Positions 236 through 13,094 of a DNA stretch of 64,000 nucleotides are shown one piece after another; the first letter of the stretch is position 1; every line of letters begins with the position of its first letter. The notes beneath the pieces are model-generated. The model searched no databases and was not told the origin of the DNA. It was given only the letters and a program-made list of their open reading frames with translations. Made by a program: the position numbers and the translations under genes. The DNA is from Pseudomonas sp. Irchel s3f7 (GTDB lineage Bacteria > Pseudomonadota > Gammaproteobacteria > Pseudomonadales > Pseudomonadaceae): positions 1-64,000 of the forward strand of contig NZ_FYDO01000029.1 of the NCBI RefSeq assembly GCF_900187615.1. The letters run 5' to 3'.

Positions 236-1621
236 TTAACCCAAAACCTCCCCCGCCACCTGATCAATTGCGTCCTTGGTGATGCCAACAATCAGGTCCG
301 CCTCTGCCTCGGTCAAGACCAACGGCGGCGCGAAGCCAAGAATGTCGCCATGGGGCATCGCCCGGGCAATCATGCCGCGCTCAAGACAAGCCGCCGAGAC
401 TTTCGGGCCGACTTTCAGTGCTGCATCGAACGGTGTGCGTTGTTCGCGATCAGCCATGAACTCAACCGCTGCGAGCATGCCGTCGCCGCGCACCTCGCCC
501 ACCAGCGGATGCCCTTCCAGGGTTTCACGCAGTCGACGATTGAGATAGCCGCCAACCTTCTCGGCATTGGCCGTGAGGTTTTCCCGCTCCAGAATATCGA
601 GGTTGGCCAGCGCCGCTGCGGCACAGATCGGGTGTCCGGAATAGGTCCAGCCATGGCCCATGGCACCTTGGGATTCGGAGGCCTTTTCGATGACATCCCA
701 AACCTTTTCACCGACGATCACTGCCGACAATGGTGCATAGGCGCTGGTCAGGCCTTTGGCAGTGGTTATCAGGTCCGGACGCATGCCGTATCGTTGGCTG
801 CCCATCTTCGAGCCGAGGCGACCAAAAGCGCAGACCACTTCGTCGGCGATCAGCAACACATCGTATTTATTCAGCACGGCTTGAATTGCAGCCCAGTAAC
901 CCGCTGGCGGCACGATGATGCCGCCCGTCCCCATCAACGGCTCGCCGATAAACGCCGCCACGGTGTCGGGGCCTTCGGCAAGGATCATTTTCTCCAGTTC
1001 GTCGGCGCAGTAATGTACGAACGCGGCCTCATCCATGCCAGTCGGCGCCTTGCGGTACCAGTGGGGGCACACGGTGTGCTTGATGCCTTCGGCCGGCAGG
1101 TCGAAATGTTGATGGAAGGTTGGCAGGCCGGTCAGGCTGCCGGTCATGATGCCCGAGCCGTGATAACCGCGGTCTCGGGAGATGATTTTCTTTTTCTGTG
1201 GACGACCCAGTACGTTGTTGTAGTAGCGCACCAGCTTGATCTGGGTTTCGTTGGCGTCGGAACCTGAGAGGCCGTAGTAGACCTTCTTCATGCCTTGCGG
1301 TGCCCAGTCGATTATGCGGTTCGACAGTTCGATGATCGCTTCGGTCGAATGCCCCACGTAGGTATGGTAATAGGCCAGTTCCTTGGCCTGCTTGTAGATG
1401 GCCTCGGCGACTTCGGTGCGACCATAGCCGATGTTCACGCAATACAGGCCAGCGAAGGCGTCGATGAATTCGCGGCCTTCGTGGTCGCGAATGCGGATGC
1501 CTGATGCGCTCTTGATGATGCGTCCCTTGAGTGCTCCGCTGGCGTGGTCATGGGCATGGGTCGAAGGGTGCATGAAATGCGCACGGTCTTGCTCGAACAG
1601 GGTATCGAATTCTTGGCTCAT
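236..1621 (-). CDS. doeD: Class III aminotransferase, probable L-2,4-diaminobutyrate transaminase (ectoine catabolism)
   Basis: PLP-dependent fold-type I class III aminotransferase of 461 residues, a normal family length. The Schiff-base lysine is K289 in TTAKGLTSAYAP, with the cofactor aspartate D260 in IADEVV and the GEPLMGTGG segment at 227-234. Sequence alone would allow several omega-amino acid:pyruvate or 2-oxoglutarate transaminases. Position as last gene of the eutBC-doeAB-doeX-doeC cluster makes DoeD (Atf) most likely: removal of the gamma-amino group of 2,4-diaminobutyrate to give aspartate semialdehyde, which doeC next door would oxidise. The start is supported by GAGGAG 8 nt upstream, and the gap to doeC is 11 nt, so the two are co-transcribed. 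The exact amino acceptor is not visible. Confidence 0.85.
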   Translation of the reverse strand: MSQEFDTLFEQDRAHFMHPSTHAHDHASGALKGRIIKSASGIRIRDHEGREFIDAFAGLYCVNIGYGRTEVAEAIYKQAKELAYYHTYVGHSTEAIIELSNRIIDWAPQGMKKVYYGLSGSDANETQIKLVRYYNNVLGRPQKKKIISRDRGYHGSGIMTGSLTGLPTFHQHFDLPAEGIKHTVCPHWYRKAPTGMDEAAFVHYCADELEKMILAEGPDTVAAFIGEPLMGTGGIIVPPAGYWAAIQAVLNKYDVLLIADEVVCAFGRLGSKMGSQRYGMRPDLITTAKGLTSAYAPLSAVIVGEKVWDVIEKASESQGAMGHGWTYSGHPICAAAALANLDILERENLTANAEKVGGYLNRRLRETLEGHPLVGEVRGDGMLAAVEFMADREQRTPFDAALKVGPKVSAACLERGMIARAMPHGDILGFAPPLVLTEAEADLIVGITKDAIDQVAGEVLG

Positions 1622-1632
1622 GGTAGATCTCC

Positions 1633-3105
1633 TCAGAACTGGCCTTGATGGTGCAGGCAGAAGTATTTGGTTTCGACAAAGGCTTCAAAGCCCTCGGTGC
1701 CGCCTTCACGGCCCAGCCCCGAGGCTTTCATGCCCCCGAACGGAATCGGATGGCCGGTGAACTTGACGCCGTTGACCGCGACCATGGCGTGGTCGAGACG
1801 ACGAATCAGCGGGTAGATCAGGTCCAGGCGATTGGAGCAAATGTAGGCGGCCAGACCGTATTCGGTGTCGTTGGCCATCTCAATGGCATGATCAAGGCTG
1901 TCGAACGGCATCACTCCGGCAATCGGCGCAAAGTTCTCTTCGCGGTAAATGCGCATTTGCGGTGTGACGTCTGCCAACACTGTGGGCTGATAGAACAGGC
2001 CACCAAGCGCATGCGCTTCGCCACCCACCAGTCGGTGCGCCCCCTGTTGCAAGGCATCGGCCACACGCTCGGCGGTGACATCAAAGGCGGCCTGATGCAT
2101 CAACGGGCCGATATCGACGCTCTGCTCCCGATCGCCGAGCATCGCCGGGCCGACCCGCAGTTCACGCACCGCCGAGGCAAAACCCTTGAGAAATTCCGGG
2201 TAGATCGAGCGATCGACCATGATGCGGTTGGCCGCACAGCAATCCTGGCCGGAGGTCTGGAACTTGGCGACGACCGCGACTTTTACTGCCAGCCCGAGAT
2301 CGGCATCGGCGCAGACAATGAACGGTGCGTTACCGCCCAGTTCCAGCGATACCTTCTTTACATCCGCAGCCGCCGCTTGCAGCACCAACTTACCCACACG
2401 GGTCGAGCCGGTGAAACTCACCGAGCGCACGCGACGGTCCTGCACCAGGGTTTGCATGGCCATTTGCGGTTCGCCCAGCACCACGTTGAACACACCGGCC
2501 GGGAAACCCGCTTCCTCCGCCAGTTGCGCCAGGGCAAACGCGGAGTACGGTGTTTCATGGGCGGGCTTGATCACCACGGTACAACCGGCTGCCAAGGCGG
2601 CCGCCGCTTTGCGGGTGATCATGGCCGAGGGAAAATTCCACGGGGTCAGCAGCGCACAGACACCGACCGGTTCCTTGAGCGTGCCCAGGTGCGCACCGGG
2701 TATGTGGCTGGGAATGTTCTGCCCATAAAGGCGCCGCGCCTCCTCGGCGAACCAGGGAATGAAGCTGACCGCATAGGCGATTTCACCGCGGGACTCGGCC
2801 AGGGACTTGCCCTGCTCCAGGCTGAGAATCCGCGCGAGGTCTTCCTGATGCTCAAGAATCAGTGCCGCCCAGCGTCGCAGAATCAACCCGCGTGCCTCCA
2901 GGCTTTGTTCGCGCCAGCCGGTAAACGCACGGTGGGCCGCGTCGATGGCCGCGACAATTTGCGGCTGATCGAGCATCGGCACATGGCCGATGAGTTTTTG
3001 ATCGGCCGGGTTATGCACGGCGATACTGTGACCGCTGTCGCTGTGGACCCAATGGCCGTCAACGTAGCAAAGGGCCTTGAACAGCAGTGGATGTTTATAG
3101 GTCAT
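1633..3105 (-). CDS. doeC: NAD(P)-dependent semialdehyde dehydrogenase, probable aspartate-semialdehyde dehydrogenase of ectoine catabolism
   Basis: Aldehyde dehydrogenase superfamily protein of 490 residues, closest in look to succinate-semialdehyde dehydrogenases (GabD). Visible motifs are the TPWNFP segment (154-159), general base E255 in LELGG, and catalytic Cys C289 in GQDCCAANR. The reading frame extends further upstream, but ATG 3105 has GGAG 9 nt ahead and begins at the family-typical N terminus, so it is preferred. In the ectoine pathway this enzyme (DoeC, Ssd) oxidises aspartate semialdehyde to L-aspartate, the point of entry to central metabolism. A degenerate REPIN separates it from doeX. 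A role in GABA or putrescine use cannot be excluded from sequence alone. Confidence 0.85.
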   Translation of the reverse strand: MTYKHPLLFKALCYVDGHWVHSDSGHSIAVHNPADQKLIGHVPMLDQPQIVAAIDAAHRAFTGWREQSLEARGLILRRWAALILEHQEDLARILSLEQGKSLAESRGEIAYAVSFIPWFAEEARRLYGQNIPSHIPGAHLGTLKEPVGVCALLTPWNFPSAMITRKAAAALAAGCTVVIKPAHETPYSAFALAQLAEEAGFPAGVFNVVLGEPQMAMQTLVQDRRVRSVSFTGSTRVGKLVLQAAAADVKKVSLELGGNAPFIVCADADLGLAVKVAVVAKFQTSGQDCCAANRIMVDRSIYPEFLKGFASAVRELRVGPAMLGDREQSVDIGPLMHQAAFDVTAERVADALQQGAHRLVGGEAHALGGLFYQPTVLADVTPQMRIYREENFAPIAGVMPFDSLDHAIEMANDTEYGLAAYICSNRLDLIYPLIRRLDHAMVAVNGVKFTGHPIPFGGMKASGLGREGGTEGFEAFVETKYFCLHHQGQF

Positions 3106-3241
3106 GGCGTTCACTCCAATCCGTGTGCGTAGAACCATGCTAGGGCAGCAAGACCTCGGGGATTTGGCGTTTGAACGGGGTGCGGCAGGTGGTTTTTTCT
3201 GATTGAGCGGGGGTAAATCGGGGATTTTTGCGGTGTGAATA

Positions 3242-3320
3242 CTGCTCACGATGGCGGGACACCCGTCAATGCAGGGTTGAATGTAAGGGCGCTATCGCGA
3301 GCAGGCTCGCTCCCACAGGG
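3242..3320. repeat. REPIN (degenerate pair of inverted REPs)
   Basis: A degenerate left REP (CTGCTCACGATGGCGG) and a good right REP (CGCGAGCAGGCTCGCTCCCACAG) face each other between doeX and doeC. Such elements can form stem-loops that stabilise upstream mRNA or end transcription. Confidence 0.65.
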
Positions 3321-3332
3321 AATAGCGTGTTT

Positions 3333-3812
3333 TCAAAGCTCCTGCGCCACTTCGGCCGGCAACGCGCCGCCGGTCTTGATGGTCTTGGTGACGATGTAGG
3401 TGAAGTAGCGTTCGATGCCCAGGTCGTCGAGCAACAACTGGTCGATGAAGCGCTGGTAATGGTCAATGTCCGGTGCCTGGATCATCGCCATGTAATCGAC
3501 GCCACCACCGGTGGCGTAACAGAACGCCACTTCCGCAGCCTCGTTCATGCGCTGTTCGAAACGCCGCATGTCCTGCGCGGTGTGTCGAGCCAAGGTGATT
3601 TCCACCAGCACCTGTTGGCTTTTGAACACCGCGTTCCAGTCGATCTGCGCCCGGTAGCCCTTGATCAAGCCCAGGCTTTCGAGTTTGCGCACCCGCTCCC
3701 ACGCAGGCGTTACCGACAGGTTGATCGCCTCAGCCAGGCTCGATTTGGTGATACGCCCGTCTTCAGCGAGGATTCGCAGGATTTTCAGGTCATAGCGATC
3801 GAGTTTGTGCAT
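3333..3812 (-). CDS. doeX: Lrp/AsnC-family transcriptional regulator of the ectoine cluster
   Basis: 159 residues with the standard Lrp/AsnC layout. An N-terminal winged HTH (about 1-60, LDRYDLKILRILAEDGRITK then SLAEAINLSVTPAWERVRKL) precedes an alpha-beta RAM ligand-binding domain (about 68-145). Proteins of this type are part of ectoine-degradation clusters (DoeX in Halomonas, AsnC in Ruegeria) and act as feast/famine activators or repressors of the degradation genes. AGGAG lies 11 nt before the start. It sits inside the catabolic gene run but is flanked on both sides by REPINs, which may uncouple its transcript level from doeB and doeC. Its effector is not predictable from the sequence. 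Confidence 0.85.
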   Translation of the reverse strand: MHKLDRYDLKILRILAEDGRITKSSLAEAINLSVTPAWERVRKLESLGLIKGYRAQIDWNAVFKSQQVLVEITLARHTAQDMRRFEQRMNEAAEVAFCYATGGGVDYMAMIQAPDIDHYQRFIDQLLLDDLGIERYFTYIVTKTIKTGGALPAEVAQEL

Positions 3813-3946: not shown

Positions 3947-4948
3947 TTAGTTCAATACATCCGCGATTACCGCAATGGTATCGCCACAGCGCACCAGTCC
4001 CGGAAAATGCCGCGCCGCCAGCAGACCGCTGCGCGCCGCACGATATTCAACCGACGCCGCGCCGCTTCGGGTAGCGTCGTACACCCGGGCAATCACTTCA
4101 CCTTGCTCCACGTTGTCCCCCAGATCACGGCACATTTCCAGCAGACCGTCGTGCTCGCTGGCGATGAAGCAATCGCCGTCGGGCATGTCGAGCATGATCG
4201 ACGGTGCGAGCTGCACCTCGCCGTCAAGGATCCCGGCATGCACCAGCAAATTGCGCACACCGCGTTCGGCAATCGCCACGCTGCGCGCCGTGGAAGAGCC
4301 GCCGCCGCCCAGTTCGGTGGTGACGAAGACTTTGCCCTGGCGTTCGGCGGCGGTGTCGTACATCGCCCCGGCATCGAGTTCCAGCATGCGCATGCTGTAC
4401 GGTGCATTGAAGGCACGCATCCCGGCCTCGCATTGCGCCTGCTGCTGTTTATCCGGCAGCACATGACAAGCGGCGAACGGCAGGAAATCCAGGGTGCGTC
4501 CGCCGGAGTGAATGTCCAGCACGATATCGGCCAATGGCAGCAAGGTACGCGTGAAGTAGTCGGCGATTTTCTCGGTCACCGTACCGTCCGGCTTGCCGGG
4601 AAAACTGCGGTTGAGATTGCCCTTGTCGATCGGTGACGTACGTCGCCCGGCATGGAACGCCGGGGTGTTCATGAACGGCACGATAATCAATCGCCCGCTC
4701 ACGTCTTTGGCCGACAGGCTTTGCGCCAGTTTGCTCAGTGCTACCGGCCCTTCGTATTCGTCGCCATGGTTGCCACCGGTGAGCAGCGCGGTCCGCCCCT
4801 CACCGCGTTGAATCACCGTGACCGGAATCATCACCGCCCCCCAGGCCGAGTCGTCCCGGGAATACGGCAGTTTGAGAAAACCGTGCTGCACGCCTTCACG
4901 GGCGAAATCCACCGTGGCGCTGATTGGGTTGTCCGGCAATTCGCTCAT
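3947..4948 (-). CDS. doeB: N-alpha-acetyl-L-2,4-diaminobutyrate deacetylase
   Basis: 333-residue member of the succinylglutamate desuccinylase/aspartoacylase (AstE/AspA, M14-like) zinc hydrolases. Predicted zinc ligands are H61 and E64 in GGNHGDEYEGP and H147 in DIHSGG; the catalytic Glu is E212 in TTELGGGG. In the ectoine pathway DoeB (EutE) removes the acetyl group from the ring-opened product of DoeA, giving 2,4-diaminobutyrate; published work describes a DoeA-DoeB hydrolase-deacetylase complex. AAGGA 7 nt upstream supports the start, and only 3 nt separate it from the doeA stop, consistent with coupled synthesis of the two partners. Confidence 0.93.
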   Translation of the reverse strand: MSELPDNPISATVDFAREGVQHGFLKLPYSRDDSAWGAVMIPVTVIQRGEGRTALLTGGNHGDEYEGPVALSKLAQSLSAKDVSGRLIIVPFMNTPAFHAGRRTSPIDKGNLNRSFPGKPDGTVTEKIADYFTRTLLPLADIVLDIHSGGRTLDFLPFAACHVLPDKQQQAQCEAGMRAFNAPYSMRMLELDAGAMYDTAAERQGKVFVTTELGGGGSSTARSVAIAERGVRNLLVHAGILDGEVQLAPSIMLDMPDGDCFIASEHDGLLEMCRDLGDNVEQGEVIARVYDATRSGAASVEYRAARSGLLAARHFPGLVRCGDTIAVIADVLN

Positions 4949-4951
4949 GAT

Positions 4952-6142
4952 TCAATCCTTCACGAACAGTTGGCGTGGCACGTTGCACAAGGTTTCGACG
5001 CCGGTTTCAGTGATCAGAATGCTCTCGGTGATCTCCAGCCCCCAGTCGTCCATCCACAGGCCCGGCATGAAGTGGAAGGTCATGCCCGGTTGCAACACGC
5101 TGGTGTCGCCGGGACGCAGGCTCATGGTGCGCTCGCCCCAATCCGGTGGATAACTGATGCCGATCGGGTAGCCGCAACGGCTGTCCTTGTGGATGCCGAA
5201 TTTCTCCAGCACCTTGAAAAACGCCGTCGCGATGTCGCCGGTGGTGTTGCCCGGTTTGGCCGCTTCAAGCCCGGCGGCGATGCCTTCGACCACGGCTTTT
5301 TCACCGTCGAGAAAATGCTGCGGCGGCTTGCCCAGGTAAATGGTGCGCGACAACGGGCAATGGTAACGCTTGTAGCAACCGGCGATTTCAAAGAAGGTGC
5401 CGGCGCCCTTTTCGAACGGCGTATCGTCCCAGGTCAGGTGCGGCGCGCTGGCATCGGCACCGGTCGGCAACAGAGGCACGATGGCCGGGTAATCACCGCC
5501 ATGGCCGTCGGCGCCGAGGATGCCGCTGCTGTAGATCTCGGCCACCAATTCATTCTTGCGCATGCCCGGCTCGATCCGTTCGAGGATCCGCCCGTGCATG
5601 TTTTCAACGATGCGAGCGGCGATGCGCATGTAGGCGATTTCCTGCGGCGACTTGATCGCCCGTTGCCAGTTCACCAGGCCGACCGCATCCACCAACGTGG
5701 CACTCGGCAAGTGTTTTTTCAGCGACAGGTAAGCCGCAGCGCTGAAGTAATAGTTGTCCATCTCCACACCGATGGTCAGCGCGTCCCAACCACGGGCGCT
5801 GATGACTTCCCGCGACAGGTAATCCATCGGGTGACGTTCCCGGGACTGCACGTAGATGTCCGGATAACCAACGATGTTCTCCTGCCGCATGAACACCGTG
5901 CGCCTGGCGCCATTGGCATCCTGCCCGCGACCGAACCACACGGGCTCGCCGTCGAGCGCCAGCAGCACGCACTGATGGACATAAAACGACCAACCGTCGT
6001 AGCCGGTCAGCCAGGCCATGTTCGACGGATCGGTGACCAGCAACAACTCGATGCCCTGCGCCTGCATGGCCGCTCGAACCTTGGCCAGACGCTGGGCATA
6101 TTCCCCCCGTTCGAACGGGAGATTGACGACTATCTGAGACAT
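4952..6142 (-). CDS. doeA: Ectoine hydrolase (M24/creatinase-like)
   Basis: 396 residues with an N-terminal creatinase domain (about 1-150) and a C-terminal pita-bread M24 domain. The metal-ligand Asp positions of aminopeptidase P/prolidase appear replaced: the stretch TFFEIAGCYKRYHCPLSRT has no DxxxxY..D pattern, as in metal-free creatinase-type hydrolases. DoeA (EutD) opens the ectoine ring to N-acetyl-2,4-diaminobutyrate, the first committed step. GAGG lies 8 nt before ATG 6142. It sits between eutC and doeB in the canonical order. Residue-level substrate specificity cannot be proven from sequence, but this context is hard to explain otherwise. Confidence 0.93.
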   Translation of the reverse strand: MSQIVVNLPFERGEYAQRLAKVRAAMQAQGIELLLVTDPSNMAWLTGYDGWSFYVHQCVLLALDGEPVWFGRGQDANGARRTVFMRQENIVGYPDIYVQSRERHPMDYLSREVISARGWDALTIGVEMDNYYFSAAAYLSLKKHLPSATLVDAVGLVNWQRAIKSPQEIAYMRIAARIVENMHGRILERIEPGMRKNELVAEIYSSGILGADGHGGDYPAIVPLLPTGADASAPHLTWDDTPFEKGAGTFFEIAGCYKRYHCPLSRTIYLGKPPQHFLDGEKAVVEGIAAGLEAAKPGNTTGDIATAFFKVLEKFGIHKDSRCGYPIGISYPPDWGERTMSLRPGDTSVLQPGMTFHFMPGLWMDDWGLEITESILITETGVETLCNVPRQLFVKD

Positions 6143-6184: not shown

Positions 6185-7177
6185 TTAACTGCCGAACTGG
6201 AATCCCTTGCCTGCCGAACGCGCGCGCTCGAATGCCAGGTTGGCCATGGCCGTGTCCTGAGCACCGGTGCCGGTGAGGTCGCACAAAGTGATTTGTGTTT
6301 CATTTGTGCGACCGGGACACTGCCCGGCCAGCACCTGCCCCAACTCTGCGAAGTCGGACTCGTCGCTGAGGACGCCAGCTTCCAGGGCGTGATGCAACTC
6401 GCCGAGAATGCGGGTCTGGCTCAAGCGATCCGCCACGTAGCAATCGACCTGAGCCAGGGCTTTGGGGGCAATTTCGTTTTTGTGCTCGGCATCTGAACCC
6501 ATGGCCGTGATGTGCAGGCCAGGCTGCAAATGCCGCACGTCAATCAAGGGCTCGCGGCTCGGCGTGCAAGTGATGGCGATGTCCACGCCATCCATGGCCT
6601 CGTCGATACTTGCGCACAGCCTGACCGCCAGCCCGCTGTCACGCGCCAGATCGACACTGAAGGCTTCGGCCTTGGCGTAGTCGCGAGCCCAAACCCGCAC
6701 GCTCTCGATCGGCCGTACCAGCCGCAAAGCCTGAAGTTGCAACGCCGCCTGCTCGCCGGCCCCGATCAGCGCCACGCTGCGACTGTCGGACCGCGACAAT
6801 GCACGTGCGGCCACGGCGCCCGCCGCCGCCGTGCGCACGGCTGTCAGGTAGCCGTTATCCAGCAACAAGGCATCGAGCAAACCGGTGCGTGCTGACAGCA
6901 GCATCATCATGCCGTTGAGGCTCGGCAGACCGAGTTTCGGGTTGTCGAAAAATCCCGGACTGACCTTGATTGCGAAGCGCTCCAGTCCGGGTAGATACGC
7001 CGTCTTCACGTCCACTTCGCCGTTATGCTCGGGGATGTCCAGGCGCAGGATCGGCGGCATGTCCACGGCGGCGGTGGCCAGCAGCAGGAAGGCTTGCTCG
7101 ATGGCTTCGATACTCGGCAGATCAAGGGCCACGCAGGCTCGCAGATCCGCTTCGCTCAACAGGGTGATTTCACTCAT
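6185..7177 (-). CDS. eutC: Ornithine cyclodeaminase/mu-crystallin-like protein of ectoine utilisation
   Basis: 330-residue ornithine cyclodeaminase/mu-crystallin family protein. It has a Rossmann NAD-binding segment beginning SVALIGAGEQAALQLQAL and the substrate-side block VKTAYLPGLERFAIKVSPGF. The open frame runs further upstream, but ATG 7177 follows a GGAG and matches the family N terminus (MSEITLLSEADL). EutC occurs with EutB in ectoine/hydroxyectoine clusters and is thought to help convert 5-hydroxyectoine to ectoine; the exact reaction is not settled. It lies 34 nt after eutB and 42 nt before doeA. Confidence 0.85.
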   Translation of the reverse strand: MSEITLLSEADLRACVALDLPSIEAIEQAFLLLATAAVDMPPILRLDIPEHNGEVDVKTAYLPGLERFAIKVSPGFFDNPKLGLPSLNGMMMLLSARTGLLDALLLDNGYLTAVRTAAAGAVAARALSRSDSRSVALIGAGEQAALQLQALRLVRPIESVRVWARDYAKAEAFSVDLARDSGLAVRLCASIDEAMDGVDIAITCTPSREPLIDVRHLQPGLHITAMGSDAEHKNEIAPKALAQVDCYVADRLSQTRILGELHHALEAGVLSDESDFAELGQVLAGQCPGRTNETQITLCDLTGTGAQDTAMANLAFERARSAGKGFQFGS

Positions 7178-7211
7178 CAACGCTGCACTCCAGTCTGATT
7201 TTTGATTGAGT

Positions 7212-8180
7212 TCACGCATCCGCGCCGGCCAGCACACGCAGATGCTGGTCGACGTCGACATTGCGACCGCTGACCACCACCACGATCGGCCCACGCGGTT
7301 CGATCAAACCATCAAGCACAGCGCCAATTCCCACCGCCGCCGCGCCTTCGAGTACCAGGCGCTCTTCGCGATAGGCATGGCGCAAGGCATGGGCGATGGA
7401 AGCTTCGCTGAGCAGATGCAGGTGGTCGCAGGTGTCGCGGGTCATGTTGAAGGTGTAACGGTTGTCCAGGCCGATGCCGCCGCCGAGGGAGTCGGCGAGG
7501 GTCGGCAGTTCCTCGACTTCCACGGGATGTCCGGTGGACAGGCTGGCGTGCATGGCCGCGCCGCGCTGCATGCTGATGCCATGCGTAACGATCTGCGGGT
7601 TGGCGCTTTTGAGGGCCAGTGCCACGCCGGCAAACAGACCACCGCCGGACAACGGCACCAGTACTTGAGCGACATCCGGCAGTTGTTCAAGGATCTCCAG
7701 CCCCAGTGTGCCCTGGCCGGCGATGACGGCAGGGTGATCGAATGGAGGTAGCAGAGTGGCGCCCTGCTCGCGGGCAATACGCTCGGCTTCGCACTGGGCA
7801 TCGTCCTGGGACTGGCCGACGATGCGCACTTGCGCACCGAGATCACGAATGGCCTGAACTTTATTTCCCGGCACCAGATGCGATAGACAAATCGTCGCCT
7901 TCACACCTTGCTGCGATGCGGCATAGGCCAGTGCCCGCCCATGATTGCCCGTCGACGCGGCGACCACGCCACACGCCTTTTGCTCGGCATTGAGTTGGGC
8001 CACGGCATTGCTCGCGCCACGCAACTTGAAGCTGCCGGTGATTTGCTGGGATTCGAGCTTGAGGTACACCGGCACGCCCAACCGCCGGGACAGGCTGGGC
8101 GAATGTTCCATGGGCGTGCACCGGACCAGCGATTGAATACGTTGGCGGGCGAGGTAGATATCGTTTAGCAGCACTGACAT
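7212..8180 (-). CDS. eutB: Threonine dehydratase-like PLP enzyme, probable hydroxyectoine utilisation dehydratase
   Basis: 322-residue fold-type II PLP enzyme resembling threonine/serine dehydratases. The PLP lysine is K52 in GSFKLRGA; the substrate loop is STGNHGRA (76-83) and the phosphate loop SGGGLFAG (178-185). The family name EutB comes from hydroxyectoine clusters, where it is predicted to act with EutC on the hydroxylated ring. It is the first gene of the catabolic transcript; its upstream region holds a motif shared with the ehuB promoter. A general serine/threonine dehydratase would look similar, so the specific role rests on context. GGGA about 7 nt upstream supports the start. Confidence 0.85.
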   Translation of the reverse strand: MSVLLNDIYLARQRIQSLVRCTPMEHSPSLSRRLGVPVYLKLESQQITGSFKLRGASNAVAQLNAEQKACGVVAASTGNHGRALAYAASQQGVKATICLSHLVPGNKVQAIRDLGAQVRIVGQSQDDAQCEAERIAREQGATLLPPFDHPAVIAGQGTLGLEILEQLPDVAQVLVPLSGGGLFAGVALALKSANPQIVTHGISMQRGAAMHASLSTGHPVEVEELPTLADSLGGGIGLDNRYTFNMTRDTCDHLHLLSEASIAHALRHAYREERLVLEGAAAVGIGAVLDGLIEPRGPIVVVVSGRNVDVDQHLRVLAGADA

Positions 8181-8239
8181 GACCGCGTCCCAAGTGAGGT
8201 GTTGGGCGCAGTCTAAGAGGGCTGGATTGTCGTGATGAA

Positions 8240-8254
8240 TGTACTAGGGCAATT
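8240..8254 (-). promoter_or_regulatory. Candidate EnuR operator in the eutB promoter
   Basis: On the minus strand this reads AATTGCCCTAGTACA, matching 13 of 15 bases of the site at 9743-9757 (AATTGTCCTAGTGCA) in front of ehuB. Both copies read toward the gene they would control. It lies 60 nt upstream of the eutB start. Binding is inferred, not shown. Confidence 0.5.
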
Positions 8255-8287
8255 TAGTCGACAAACTTTTTGGCACCGGTTGCCCGC

Positions 8288-9682
8288 TCAAAAATCATGG
8301 ATCTGCGGGTACTGACCGAAGATTTCGCGCATGCCCATCAGCGCATCGCGCATTTCGTCGTCGCTGCATTCGGCACCGACACACACCCGGACTGCCCGGG
8401 GCCTGGGCGTGCCACGCACCGTGAACGGGTCGGGCGAAGTGACCGCAATGTGCTTGTGGCGCAGCGCCCGCACCAGGCTGTCGACTTCCCAATGAGGGGG
8501 AATGCCGATCCAGGCATTCAATGCATAGGGATGCTGGCCAAGCAGGTACTCGTCCAGGTACTCGCTGACCATTGCTTGCCGACCGGACAGGAGTTTGCGT
8601 TGCAGGTCCACCAGGGTGTCGGCGCGCCCGTCGCGAATCCAGCGCGTGGCGATCTCCGCGACCATAGGCGTTGCCATCCAGCTATTGACCCGCAAAATAC
8701 TTTCGGTGCGCAATGCCAGCCGCTTTGGCATCACCAGATATCCGACGCGCAAACCCGTGAGCACCGACTTGGTCATGCTGGTGCAATAAAACGACAGTTC
8801 CGGCAAATAGTGGCTGATCGGTGGTGCCCGGCGCTCGTCCAGCAGAGGGCCATATACATCGTCTTCGATAATGTGCACGCCAAACCGCCGAGCGATCTCG
8901 GCAATTTCCCGTCGACGGCTGTCCGGCATCAGGCTGGTGGTCGGGTTGTTCAGGTTTGGCGTACAGACCAGAGCGGTGATGCGCTCGTTGCTGCACATGT
9001 CCTCGAAATGCTCGGGGTCGATGCCATGTCGGTCCATCTCCAGACCCTTGAGGGTAAACCCGAGCACCTGGGAATTGCCGATCACACCGTGGTCGGTCAA
9101 CCCTTCGCAAAGCACTACATCATCCGGGCCGGCAAGGGATGCCAAGGCCAGAAAAATGGCGTGGGCAGCGCCGTTGGTGATCAGAATGTCGTCGCGCTCG
9201 ACCCGCAGGCCTTGCCGCGCGATCCAGTGCATCGCCGCTTCACGGTGCGACTCGAAACCGGCAATCGGGCGAAACGCGTGAATCCAGGGCTGATCCTCTT
9301 CGGTGCTGAGTTCGCGACAGGTTTCGCGCCAGAACTGGTCATGCTCACGGGTGTGCATGATCCGCGTGATGGAAAAATCCACCAGCGCTCGTTCGGGGCT
9401 GTCGAGAATATACGTGGCAACCCGGTCGCTCATGCGCCGCGAGACAAAACTGCCGCGCCCCACCTCGCACCTCACCAGGCCCTGGCGCTCGAGTTCCTTG
9501 TAGGCATTAGTGACGGTTTGCACACTGATGCCCATGGCATCGGCGACATTACGTTGCGGCGGCAGCCGCTGATCATTGGCCAGCACGCCCTGCTCGATAT
9601 CGTCGGCAATCGACTGAACGAGGATCTTGTATTTCGACTCGCCACTACGGGCGATTTCCAGTGCTGCTTTCCACTTGTCCAT
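8288..9682 (-). CDS. enuR: MocR/GabR-type regulator (GntR HTH fused to aminotransferase fold), probable EnuR
   Basis: 464 residues. An N-terminal GntR winged HTH (about 16-82: LPPQRNVADAMGISVQTVTNAYKEL then GRGSFVSRR) is joined to a type-I aminotransferase-like domain with the DD pair in IIEDDVYG (near 274) and PLP lysine K305 in TSMTKSVLTGLRVGY. In other bacteria EnuR represses ectoine genes until PLP-bound protein senses pathway intermediates (acetyl-diaminobutyrate or diaminobutyrate). It converges on nothing else here: it lies between the catabolic genes and the divergent importer. ATG 9682 is preferred because the conserved domain begins there; ATG 9703 is possible, and neither has a strong ribosome-binding site. 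Confidence 0.88.
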   Translation of the reverse strand: MDKWKAALEIARSGESKYKILVQSIADDIEQGVLANDQRLPPQRNVADAMGISVQTVTNAYKELERQGLVRCEVGRGSFVSRRMSDRVATYILDSPERALVDFSITRIMHTREHDQFWRETCRELSTEEDQPWIHAFRPIAGFESHREAAMHWIARQGLRVERDDILITNGAAHAIFLALASLAGPDDVVLCEGLTDHGVIGNSQVLGFTLKGLEMDRHGIDPEHFEDMCSNERITALVCTPNLNNPTTSLMPDSRRREIAEIARRFGVHIIEDDVYGPLLDERRAPPISHYLPELSFYCTSMTKSVLTGLRVGYLVMPKRLALRTESILRVNSWMATPMVAEIATRWIRDGRADTLVDLQRKLLSGRQAMVSEYLDEYLLGQHPYALNAWIGIPPHWEVDSLVRALRHKHIAVTSPDPFTVRGTPRPRAVRVCVGAECSDDEMRDALMGMREIFGQYPQIHDF

Positions 9683-9742
9683 CGGCGTTCGACCCGCGTG
9701 CATGCCAGTGGCCACAGCATCCCGCGAGAATCCACGCAAAGC

Positions 9743-9776
9743 AATTGTCCTAGTGCAATGCAATCCTGCACAGTGC
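9743..9776 (+). promoter_or_regulatory. Candidate EnuR operator region of the enuR-ehuB intergenic
   Basis: It contains AATTGTCCTAGTGCA (9743-9757), shared with the eutB promoter, three GCAAT direct repeats (starting 9741, 9755, 9760) and an inverted pair GTGCA/TGCAC (9753-9757, 9767-9771). A possible ehuB -10 (TATGCT, 9782-9787) follows. MocR proteins often bind direct repeats near promoters. Function is inferred. Confidence 0.45.
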
Positions 9777-9974
9777 TTTTGTATGCTCGGTACAAGGTCG
9801 ATGCCCAGGCTGCCGAACCAGCCACCAACAACAACCAATCGATCTGTACCGGAACTGTCTCCCCACGCTTCGGCTCAACAGGTGGACCAGCCCTCGTACG
9901 CTTTGCTCTTGTCACACTGCCTCCTACCACAGAACCGTCAAAGACGGATCCACAAGAAACAGGAGATTTTATCG

Positions 9975-10829
9975 ATGAGCAATTCCATTCCCCGCACTCC
10001 CCATGTCTTGCGCCACCTGTTCGTCGCTTGCGCGATATTCGGCCTGGCCACCAGCGCCTACGCCACGACGCTGGAAACCATCACGAAGAACAGCAGCATC
10101 CGCATTGGTTATGCAAACGAAACCCCGTTCGCCTTCACTGAAACCGACGGCAGAGTCACCGGTGAATCACCGGAAATCGCCAAGGTCATCTTTGAAAAAA
10201 TGGGCATCAAGACAGTCGACGGCGTACTGACCGAATGGGGCTCGTTGATCCCCGGCCTGCGCGCCGGACGTTTCGACGTGATTGCCGCAGGCATGTACAT
10301 CACGCCCGAGCGCTGCAAGCAGGTCATCTTCACCGATCCGCAATACCAGTTGCCCGACGCACTCCTGACAGCCAAAGGCAACCCGAAAAATCTGCACAGC
10401 TATGAAGACATCGCCAAAAACCCGGATGTGAAACTGGCGATCATGGCCGGCACGGTCAACCTGAAATACGCGCGGGATTCTGGCGTGAAGGACGCGCAGA
10501 TCCTCCAGGTACCGGACACCACCGCGCAGTTGCAAGCCGTGCGCGCCGGGCGTGCCGATGCGGCCGTCGGCACCCAGCTGACCATGAAAGGCCTGGCCAG
10601 CAAAGGCGGCGACAAGGTCGAAGCGGTCACCGAGTTCAAGGATGACCCCTCGCACACAGGTTATGGCGCCCTCGCCTTCCGCCCGGAAGACAAGGACCTG
10701 CGTGATGCGGTCAACGCCGAACTGAAAAAGTGGCTGGGTTCCGAAGAACATCTCAAGACGGTTGCCCCTTTCGGCTTCGACAAATCCAACGTGACAAGCA
10801 AAACGGCTGCCGAGCTCTGCGCTCAATAG
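9975..10829 (+). CDS. ehuB: Ectoine/hydroxyectoine ABC transporter, periplasmic binding protein
   Basis: 284 residues with a Sec signal peptide (about 1-30, cleavage after AYA) and a family 3 solute-binding domain. Recognisable blocks are IRIGYANETPFAFTETDGRV and the ligand-anion segment LRAGRFDVIAAGMYITPERC. EhuB captures ectoine or 5-hydroxyectoine in the periplasm and delivers it to EhuCD. AGGAG 9 nt upstream fixes the start, and an A-rich ACAAGAAACA stretch just before it could be a weak Hfq/Crc target. It is the first gene of the ehuBCDA operon. Polar amino acid binding proteins look similar; the neighbouring catabolic genes decide the call. Confidence 0.9.
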   Translation: MSNSIPRTPHVLRHLFVACAIFGLATSAYATTLETITKNSSIRIGYANETPFAFTETDGRVTGESPEIAKVIFEKMGIKTVDGVLTEWGSLIPGLRAGRFDVIAAGMYITPERCKQVIFTDPQYQLPDALLTAKGNPKNLHSYEDIAKNPDVKLAIMAGTVNLKYARDSGVKDAQILQVPDTTAQLQAVRAGRADAAVGTQLTMKGLASKGGDKVEAVTEFKDDPSHTGYGALAFRPEDKDLRDAVNAELKKWLGSEEHLKTVAPFGFDKSNVTSKTAAELCAQ

Positions 10830-10906: not shown

Positions 10907-11566
10907 ATGGGTGAGTTACTTCCGCTTTTGATACAAGGCGCCTGGGTCACGCTCCAGGTGACCTTCTTGGGCTCGATCCTGGCGATTGTCGCGGCCATTC
11001 TGGCGGCGCTGGGGCGCATGTCGCCGTGGCGGCCGCTGAGCTGGTTCTCGGTCGCCTACATTGAAGTGTTCCGCGGCACGTCGTTGCTGGTGCAATTGTT
11101 CTGGTTGTTTTTCGTGTTGCCGCTGCCACCGTTCAATCTCGAACTGAGCCCCTACAGCGTGGCCATTGTCGGCCTTGGCTTACACATCGGTGCTTACGGC
11201 GCGGAGGTGATGCGCGGTGCGATCAGCTCCGTTGCCAAAGGTCAGTACGAAGCGGCGACTGCATTGAACTTCAGCGGCTACAAGCGCCTTCGGCGAATCA
11301 TTTTGCCCCAGGCGTTGCTGGCGGCCATTCCACCGGGCACCAACCTGCTGATCGAGTTGCTGAAAAATACGTCGCTGGTCTCGCTGATCACCCTGTCGGA
11401 CCTCAGCTTCCGGGCCCGACAACTGGACCAGGCCACTTTCCAGACCCTGGAAATCTTCAGCCTGGCTCTGGTGATGTACTTCGTTCTGGCTCAAGCGATC
11501 AACCTCGGCATGCGCAGCGTTGAGCGACGTTTGGCTCGCGGCCGGATGCGTGGAGGTCTGTCATGA
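10907..11566 (+). CDS. ehuC: Ectoine/hydroxyectoine ABC transporter permease
   Basis: 219-residue inner-membrane permease of the HisM/GlnP type with several hydrophobic helices. It carries an EAA loop at about 115-140 (EAATALNFSGYKRLRRIILP), which contacts the ATPase. It would pair with EhuD to form the channel. A 77-nt gap follows ehuB, long enough for partial transcript attenuation, and the end overlaps ehuD by 4 nt (ATGA), indicating translational coupling. Confidence 0.9.
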   Translation: MGELLPLLIQGAWVTLQVTFLGSILAIVAAILAALGRMSPWRPLSWFSVAYIEVFRGTSLLVQLFWLFFVLPLPPFNLELSPYSVAIVGLGLHIGAYGAEVMRGAISSVAKGQYEAATALNFSGYKRLRRIILPQALLAAIPPGTNLLIELLKNTSLVSLITLSDLSFRARQLDQATFQTLEIFSLALVMYFVLAQAINLGMRSVERRLARGRMRGGLS

Positions 11567-12219
11567 CCCTGTTCGACTGGACATATGCCTGGCAGATCCT
11601 GCCCGATTTGCTGCGGGCATCGCTGAACACCGTGGGCATTACCCTGCTCGGTTTCCTGATCGCCATTGTACTGGGGTTGTTTCTGGCCATCGGCCGACGC
11701 AGTCGCCTGTTCTGGTTATCGTGGCCAACCGCCGGGGTGATCGAATTCATCCGCAGCACGCCGTTGTTGATCCAGGTGTATTTCCTCTATTACGTGCTGC
11801 CCAATTACGGCGTGAGCATGACAGCCATGCAGGTGGGGGTGATCGGCATTGGTGTGCATTACGCCTGCTACATCGCCGAGGTGTATCGCGGTGGCCTCGA
11901 CGCCGTGCCGCGGGCGCAGTGGGAGGCCGTTACGGCGTTGAACATCGCGCCTTATAGCGCGTACCGCAACATCATCCTCCCCCAGGCCCTTCGGCCGATC
12001 CTGCCGCCGCTGGGCAATTACCTGGTGGCCATGCTCAAGGACACGCCGGTGCTGTCGGCCATTACCGTGGTCGAGATCATGCAGCAAGCCAAGAACATTG
12101 GTTCCGAGAACTTCCGCTACCTGGAGCCGATCACCATGGTCGGTCTGTTTTTCCTCGCCCTGAGCATCGCTTTGGCTTATCTGGTACGGCGCCTTGAACT
12201 GCGCCTGGAGCTACGCTAA
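11563..12219 (+). CDS. ehuD: Ectoine/hydroxyectoine ABC transporter permease
   Basis: 218-residue second permease of the HisM/GlnP type. The EAA loop EAVTALNIAPYSAYRNIILP is followed by the ALRPILPPLGNYLV segment. Start and stop overlap with ehuC (4 nt) and ehuA (1 nt), so all three are translated as a unit. It would form the membrane heterodimer with EhuC. Confidence 0.9.
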   Translation: MTLFDWTYAWQILPDLLRASLNTVGITLLGFLIAIVLGLFLAIGRRSRLFWLSWPTAGVIEFIRSTPLLIQVYFLYYVLPNYGVSMTAMQVGVIGIGVHYACYIAEVYRGGLDAVPRAQWEAVTALNIAPYSAYRNIILPQALRPILPPLGNYLVAMLKDTPVLSAITVVEIMQQAKNIGSENFRYLEPITMVGLFFLALSIALAYLVRRLELRLELR

Positions 12220-13094
12220 TGACTTCTCCTATCTCGACCTCCGACGACCTTTCCCGACACGGCACCCTGACATCACTGCACCCGCAAGAGGCCTGTGCCA
12301 TGCCTGAATCGAAACCGGTCAAGCCGATTGTCAGCTTCCAGGACGTCACTAAGAGCTACGGCAATTTCACGGTGCTCGACCACTTGAACCTGGATGTCAC
12401 GTCGGGAGAAAAAGTAGCGATCATCGGCCCAAGCGGCTCGGGAAAATCCACGCTGTTGCGGGTGTTGATGACGCTTGAGGGGATTGATGACGGATTGATC
12501 CGCATCGAGGACGACTTGTTGACCCATATGCCCAATCGCAACGGCGTGCTGGTGCCTGCAAACGACCGGCATATCCGTCGCGTTCGCGGCAAGATCGGCA
12601 TGGTGTTCCAGAGCTTCAACCTGTTTCCGCACATGACGGCCTTACAAAACGTCATTGAAGCGCCAGTGCAGGTGCTGGGCATGAAACCCGCCGAAGCACG
12701 CGAACGAGCAGCGGATTTGCTGGAGCTGGTGGGCCTGGGCAACAAACTGGGGCACTACCCTTCGCAGCTGTCCGGTGGACAGCAACAACGGGTGGCCATA
12801 GCCCGCGCGTTGGCCATGCGTCCCAAAGTCATGCTTTTTGACGAAGTGACCTCGGCACTCGATCCGGAGCTGTGCGGCGAAGTGCTCAACGTTATCCGCA
12901 AGCTAGGTGCCGAACATAACCTGACCATGCTGATGGTCACGCACCAGATGGGATTTGCCCGGGAGTTCGCCGATCGCGTGTGTTTCTTCTACAAGGGGCA
13001 GATTCACGAGCAGGGATCACCGGCGCAGATCTTCGAACATCCACAGCAGGAACGTACCCGCGCGTTTCTCAGTGCGGTAAAAGAAGCCAACTAG
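12219..13094 (+). CDS. ehuA: Ectoine/hydroxyectoine ABC transporter ATPase
   Basis: 291-residue ABC ATPase. Walker A GPSGSGKST lies at 70-78, signature LSGGQQQR follows, then Walker B VMLFDEVTSALD and the H-loop in MVTHQMGFA. It energises EhuBCD. The start at 12219 overlaps the ehuD stop by one base and has GGAG about 9 nt upstream; an internal ATG at 12300 would give the more usual family N terminus and cannot be excluded. The 27-residue N-terminal extension is otherwise unremarkable. Confidence 0.9.
   Translation: MTSPISTSDDLSRHGTLTSLHPQEACAMPESKPVKPIVSFQDVTKSYGNFTVLDHLNLDVTSGEKVAIIGPSGSGKSTLLRVLMTLEGIDDGLIRIEDDLLTHMPNRNGVLVPANDRHIRRVRGKIGMVFQSFNLFPHMTALQNVIEAPVQVLGMKPAEARERAADLLELVGLGNKLGHYPSQLSGGQQQRVAIARALAMRPKVMLFDEVTSALDPELCGEVLNVIRKLGAEHNLTMLMVTHQMGFAREFADRVCFFYKGQIHEQGSPAQIFEHPQQERTRAFLSAVKEAN

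Follow-up and report, generated by a model that had tools for sequence, protein, structure and literature searches.

A strongly conserved pair of putative EnuR operators on either side of the regulator gene in the ectoine uptake and breakdown cluster of Pseudomonas sp. Irchel s3f7

The ectoine gene cluster and its regulator

The stretch of Pseudomonas sp. Irchel s3f7 DNA analysed here (64 kb, hereafter the window) carries genes for ectoine uptake and breakdown on both sides of a regulatory gene, enuR (also known as ehuR or eutR; 8288..9682, minus strand), the start codon of which was chosen from reading-frame conservation. The product is a PLP-dependent regulator of the MocR/GntR type; it scored 632.6 bits against the NCBIfam model NF052286 (EhuR; cut-off 480) and joins a GntR wHTH domain (PF00392) to a fold-type I aminotransferase domain (Aminotran_1_2, PF00155); in an alignment with four homologues from outside the class, Lys305 falls on their lysine. 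On the minus strand enuR is followed, in this order, by eutB (7212..8180; TIGR02991, NF005680), eutC (6185..7177; TIGR02992), the ectoine hydrolase gene eutD/doeA (4952..6142; TIGR02993), the deacetylase gene eutE/doeB (3947..4948; TIGR02994), a gene for an Lrp-type regulator (3333..3812; AsnC_trans_reg, HTH_24) that we name doeX/asnC-like from its gene context, an aldehyde dehydrogenase gene (1633..3249; SSADH-type, below the named cut-offs and with an uncertain start; doeC/ssd by context) and a class III aminotransferase gene (236..1621; NF005684, Aminotran_3; doeD/atf by context).

Divergent from enuR, the plus strand carries ehuBCDA. The gene for the ectoine-binding protein, ehuB (9975..10829; TIGR02995), is followed by those for the permeases and the ATPase, ehuC, ehuD and ehuA (10907..13094), where ehuC and ehuD were assigned by position and open reading frame only; EhuA matched TIGR03005 over residues 38-288, and ehuA probably starts within the open reading frame at 12219. 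Thus, the neighbours of the regulator with matches to curated equivalog models are EhuB, EhuA, EutB, EutC, EutD and EutE. A search of the same genome for eutA (TIGR02990) gave no match, though eutB and eutC are present; it was run without a positive control, so the absence of eutA is not proven. An Rfam search of positions 7900-10200 gave no match at gathering scores.

Sequence and conservation of the two palindromic sites

The first-pass annotation had described a 15-nt motif shared by the upstream regions of eutB and ehuB, and both 15-mers were found where it had placed them (8254-8240, minus strand, and 9743-9757, plus strand). By shifting the frame of the 15-mer, we found the operator unit at both places to be a 16-bp imperfect palindrome: operator A, ATTGTCCTAGTGCAAT (9744..9759), lies in the divergent enuR-ehuB intergenic region, 61 nt from the enuR start and 215 nt from that of ehuB, and operator B, ATTGCCCTAGTACATT (8238..8253, minus strand), lies after the enuR stop and before the start of eutB. 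Operator A matches its own reverse complement at 12 of the 16 positions and operator B at 10, and the two are identical to each other at 13 of 16 positions in each orientation. The proposal that each site reads toward the gene it controls is therefore not supported, since the 'direction' of a near-palindromic element says little. The consensus for EutR/EnuR derived by Suvorova and Rodionov in 2016 (PMC5320631; quoted in PMC8739950) is likewise an inverted repeat, ATTGT-N6-ACAAT; of the ten positions that it specifies, one differs in operator A and two in operator B.

The two 15-mers were the only matches with at most two mismatches in the window; allowing three mismatches gave six matches against 3.0 expected, a number that was reached in 7 of 100 shuffles. 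In the 6.06-Mb genome, the 13-mer TTGYCCTAGTRCA had two perfect matches, which are just these two sites. When the two intergenic regions were dinucleotide-shuffled, 12 of 400 shuffles also gave identity at 13 of 15 positions in either orientation, so the identity alone is modest, suggestive evidence; what makes the match convincing is the conservation of the sites across loci described below. Looser searches showed little above background: the bare ATTGT-N6-ACAAT with at most two mismatches showed no enrichment in the window (13 matches against 15 expected), ATTGTNNTAGNACAAT with at most three mismatches occurred 462 times in the whole genome against 421 for the reversed control, and among the matches listed for TTGYCCTAGTRCA with at most two mismatches in the genome there was no excess that would indicate further targets (319 against 662 for the reversed control). 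At locus L009, a near-match, ATTGTTGTAGGACAAG (1501-1516), is flanked by an Lrp gene resembling bkdR and a branched-chain dehydrogenase-like gene resembling bkdA (names assigned by eye).

To place the sites in a wider context, 298 genomes of the genus were searched, of which 52 were classed as EnuR-positive by a regulator match at E <= 1e-100. Operator A was identical letter for letter in 50 of the 52 genus loci with EnuR, the two loci without the site being L049 and L067; operator B, counted over 50 loci (L045 and L067 were left out as having no usable eutB), was present as AT[TC]G[ACT]CCTAGTACATT in all 50 genus loci with eutB after enuR. Furthermore, operator B lay 56-66 nt before eutB in 50/50 loci, while the gap between enuR and eutB in them ranged from 100 to 1670 nt. 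Because the loci are related, the effective number by simple weighting is about 13 to 28 of the 50-51. The degenerate operator pattern was found in 51 of the 52 EnuR-positive genomes and in 1 of the 246 without a strong EnuR match, the former rate being partly a product of construction since the pattern was derived from the same loci, which does not apply to the low rate elsewhere; read backwards, the pattern gave five matches in the 298 genomes. The single match without a strong EnuR (G293) was flanked by unrelated genes that look surface-polysaccharide-like by eye, and no ectoine protein was matched within 3 kb of it. In this way, the conservation upstream of eutB and ehuB in related strains that the first-pass annotation had named as one of its checks was borne out, and the loss of conservation that it had taken as refuting the motif was not seen.

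The largest enuR-eutB gap (1670 nt; L062) holds a transposase-like gene by eye (6444-7568), and operator B still lies 60 nt before eutB. In L049 (G085), enuR is directly adjoined by an ehuA-like gene, and a search of 5 kb gave no ehuB match; this locus lacks operator A and keeps operator B. L067 (G211) has an orphan EnuR-like gene (69% identical) with ParA/FleN-like and CheY-like neighbours (by eye), and its 6.2-kb contig showed no eut or ehu matches and no operator.

Outside the genus, sites were read for 44 of 80 loci (L134-L177). In Burkholderiaceae, operator A was found with at most two mismatches in 35/35 loci and operator B in 33/35. In the loci that we label Stutzerimonas-type (L136-L140 and L208), operator A was identical in 6/6, and operator B was missing at up to two mismatches from the three of three that have eutB after enuR; at the same threshold, operator B was not found in L164, L171 or L197, the last of which has operator A. 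The sites in the Aromatoleum and Thauera loci (L141 and L168) were weaker and in other places.

The first-pass annotation had also pointed to a cluster of GCAAT repeats near ehuB. Three copies are indeed present, but they are not conserved as a cluster: across 51 Pseudomonadaceae loci, the copy inside the operator is invariant (51/51), the left copy occurs in 42 and the right copy in 21. Conserved head-to-tail boxes, as expected of a direct-repeat MocR operator, were therefore not found at operator A, where the right-hand GCAAT is kept in only those 21 of 51 loci. At eutB, an additional ACAAT (8226..8230, minus strand) lies between operator B and the predicted -10 box; since 41 of 51 loci keep ACAAT at this position (with TCAAT or GCAAT in nine and GCATT in one), it may be a third EnuR half-site.

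The operators resemble those predicted for EutR/EnuR (PMC5320631) in the regulator family, in the ATTGT/ACAAT-type arms 6 bp apart and in the ehu and eut targets; the 6-bp spacer here has a CTAG core, kept in 51 of 51 Pseudomonadaceae A sites. The core of the Burkholderiaceae sites counted is CTAG or CCAG. Among 20 loci with other EnuR homologues, 16 had an operator-like site with a CATG-type centre, three had a site with another centre, one had none and CTAG occurred in none. A corresponding difference was seen in the regulator: the recognition helix reads VTNAYKEL in 11/11 aligned proteins of the CTAG clade, and TNAY was present in 0/13 of the others aligned. Operator core and recognition helix thus appear to change together, a correlation that fits EnuR as the reader of the site.

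Predicted promoters next to the operators

At a distance of 22 nt from operator A on one side lies TATGCT (9782..9787, plus strand), the predicted -10 box of ehuB, and at the same distance on its other side GATGCT (9716..9721, minus strand), that predicted for enuR; TAGACT (8210..8215, minus strand), predicted for eutB, lies 22 nt from operator B. The geometry was compared in promoter groups that comprise 51 genus loci and L201 (another genus of the family) along with the relatives, with L067, L141, L168 and L197 left out. In Pseudomonadaceae, a hexamer at a gap of 22 nt was found as TATGCT at ehuB in 51/51 loci, as TA(N)ACT at eutB in 51/51 and as GATGCT or a listed variant at enuR in 45/51. 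The Burkholderiaceae gap was 23 nt at enuR (33/35), 21 or 22 nt at eutB (33/33) and 21 or 22 nt at ehuB in 17 of 28 loci, the exact hexamer being missing from the other 11; in the six Stutzerimonas-type loci it was 22 nt at enuR (6/6) and 22 or 23 nt at ehuB (4/6).

In Pseudomonadaceae, no hexamers downstream of the operator are better conserved than those at or beside this offset, and at ehuB the hexamers at gaps of 18, 19, 22 and 23 nt tie at 2.0 bits; in Burkholderiaceae, the predicted -10 is the best-conserved hexamer at enuR, and other hexamers score higher at ehuB and eutB. From this conservation we infer that the hexamers are -10 boxes, and the transcription starts are predicted on the same grounds. 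Read in this way, they predict starts near 9794 (plus strand), 9709 and 8203 (both minus strand), each of which would lie about 42-43 bp downstream of the operator centre, a distance that is characteristic of class II activator sites. A generic sigma-70 scan gave no match toward ehuB, enuR or eutB; its one match, on the plus strand at 8270, points away from eutB. Downstream of operator A, the element CTTTTGTATGCTCGG (9776-9790), which contains the predicted -10 box of ehuB, is conserved well beyond that box; it occurs once exactly in the genome and seven times with at most two mismatches, and many Burkholderiaceae loci have a similar CTTTGTATGCT or CTTTGTATTCT in the corresponding position.

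A -35 box with at least five of six matches at a spacing of 15-19 nt was present in 1 of 261 promoters. The best -35 matches were nevertheless above random in five of the six Pseudomonadaceae and Burkholderiaceae promoter groups, and four of six matches were reached at eutB in 29 of 33 Burkholderiaceae loci and at enuR in 18 of 51 Pseudomonadaceae loci. The -35 slot beside the operator, which includes one operator base, was conserved above the downstream mean in six of six groups, most clearly in Burkholderiaceae. With a 17-nt spacer, the operator touches this slot by that one base; the -35 matches are weak and the predicted -10 is left free. By contrast, in the loci outside the class, TTGAC[AT]TGA was found within 350 nt after enuR in 16/16 (TTGACA in 15, TTGACT in one), with -10 matches of three of six in 15 loci and four of six in one; these 16, part of a set of 30 loci, come from two families and are taken by inference as alphaproteobacterial. 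The box in which their TTGACA/T sits looks like one half of the operator that precedes it, as would be expected of a promoter whose -35 is covered by a repressor.

EnuR as the probable regulator and the sign of its control

The shared sites, their conservation and their specificity to EnuR-positive genomes make it very probable that both are bound by EnuR, whose gene sits between them, and the earlier suggestion that one EnuR switch serves both uptake and breakdown is well supported by this shared candidate operator. Since ehuBCDA is divergent from enuR, operator A is common to both, and because it lies so close to the enuR start, enuR itself is likely to be a third target, one that the first-pass annotation had not listed. 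Among the closest known systems are EnuR of Ruegeria pomeroyi and EhuR of Sinorhizobium meliloti (PMC8739950, PMC5924519), which, as far as these accounts describe them, resemble the system here in orthologous function, in the PLP lysine and in operators at uptake and catabolic promoters. They differ in layout: Ruegeria has two predicted operators that overlap the core promoter of a single operon located downstream of enuR, and its regulator is a repressor (PMC8739950, PMC5924519), whereas single operators stand here beside three predicted promoters, one pair of which is divergent, and a good -35 is rare. The divergons of GabR from Bacillus subtilis and of PdxR also have a MocR regulator divergent from its target with a site common to both promoters, as here; according to PMC5320631, the sites of GabR and several of those of PdxR are direct or mixed repeats, in contrast to the inverted repeat found here, and Listeria PdxR binds inverted repeats.

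For the sign of control, repression relieved by an inducer is the default by analogy with published precedent, and we regard it as reasonably probable. EnuR is described as a repressor in Ruegeria and Sinorhizobium (PMC5924519, PMC8739950), both genetically tested EnuR proteins are reported as repressors (PMC5924519, PMC13188858), and in Ruegeria alpha-ADABA and related products relieve the repression (PMC5924519, PMC8739950). It is also conceivable, at clearly lower probability, that in the Pseudomonas/Burkholderiaceae clade EnuR works as an activator, or activates ehu and eut and represses its own gene in the manner of GabR and PdxR. The 2018 review does not decide whether EnuR might activate as well (PMC5924519), and MocR genes divergent from their targets, as enuR is from ehuB, are often autorepressors with positively regulated targets (PMC5320631). 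The operator, at the class II position, might then make up for a poor or missing -35 box, a suggestion that we hold tentatively and that draws on the 22-nt distance to a -10-like hexamer at all three Pseudomonadaceae promoters and on the near-absence of good -35 boxes, as opposed to the TTGACA/T of all 16 loci outside the class. Repression, however, is also possible from a site touching the -35 region, and the -10 boxes and starts behind an activating role are themselves predictions. Moreover, poor -35 boxes are widespread among these bacteria, those found here exceed random in five of six groups and reach four of six matches at the Burkholderiaceae eutB and Pseudomonadaceae enuR frequencies given above, and the outside loci have poor -10 boxes too (three of six in 15/16). 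The Burkholderiaceae speak for activation less clearly, their -35 slot being conserved and their best hexamer at ehuB and eutB not being the predicted -10. That EnuR of gamma- and betaproteobacteria is an ectoine-responsive activator at enuR, ehuB and eutB, perhaps repressing its own gene, is thus a possibility on the doubtful side; if true, the family would have switched sign relative to the alphaproteobacterial repressors, alongside the change in operator core and recognition helix.

That a different regulator binds the sites, for instance the cluster's own Lrp-type DoeX/AsnC, is quite improbable: a doeX-like gene is present, and AsnC is described as a positive regulator of the Ruegeria ectoine operon (PMC5924519), but the sites match the EnuR consensus, their core changes along with the EnuR recognition helix, and L139 and L140 keep operator A with enuR and ehu genes and no DoeX-like match in their 6-kb flanks, the part of these genomes that was covered. 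Chance similarity of the two promoters, to which the 12 of 400 shuffled pairs at 13/15 identity would point, is refuted by the conservation of the sites, with operator B at a fixed distance from eutB in 50/50 loci, operator A in 50/52 and the pattern nearly absent from genomes without EnuR (1/246), and its probability is negligible.

Under the favoured reading, in which both sites are EnuR operators, an EnuR dimer with PLP on Lys305, as deduced from the alignment, would bind each 16-bp palindrome. Operator A would act on the divergent enuR and ehuBCDA promoters from a position halfway between them, and operator B would front eutBCDE-doeX and the genes after them. By analogy with Ruegeria, intracellular breakdown products of ectoine such as alpha-ADABA may alter the DNA binding of EnuR, which could in this manner switch uptake, breakdown and enuR together.

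The operator type is already known; in the literature searched, which covers subscription journals thinly, no experimental description of EnuR operators in Pseudomonas was found. Judged from sequence, what is placed here is a genuine, strongly conserved pair of very probable EnuR operators. Taken together, the analysis places both predicted operators of a Pseudomonas EnuR regulon to the base and adds enuR as a likely target, and it supplies a clade-specific CTAG core with a matching change in the recognition helix. Furthermore, the near-fixed geometry between operator and predicted -10 makes activation versus repression by EnuR testable.
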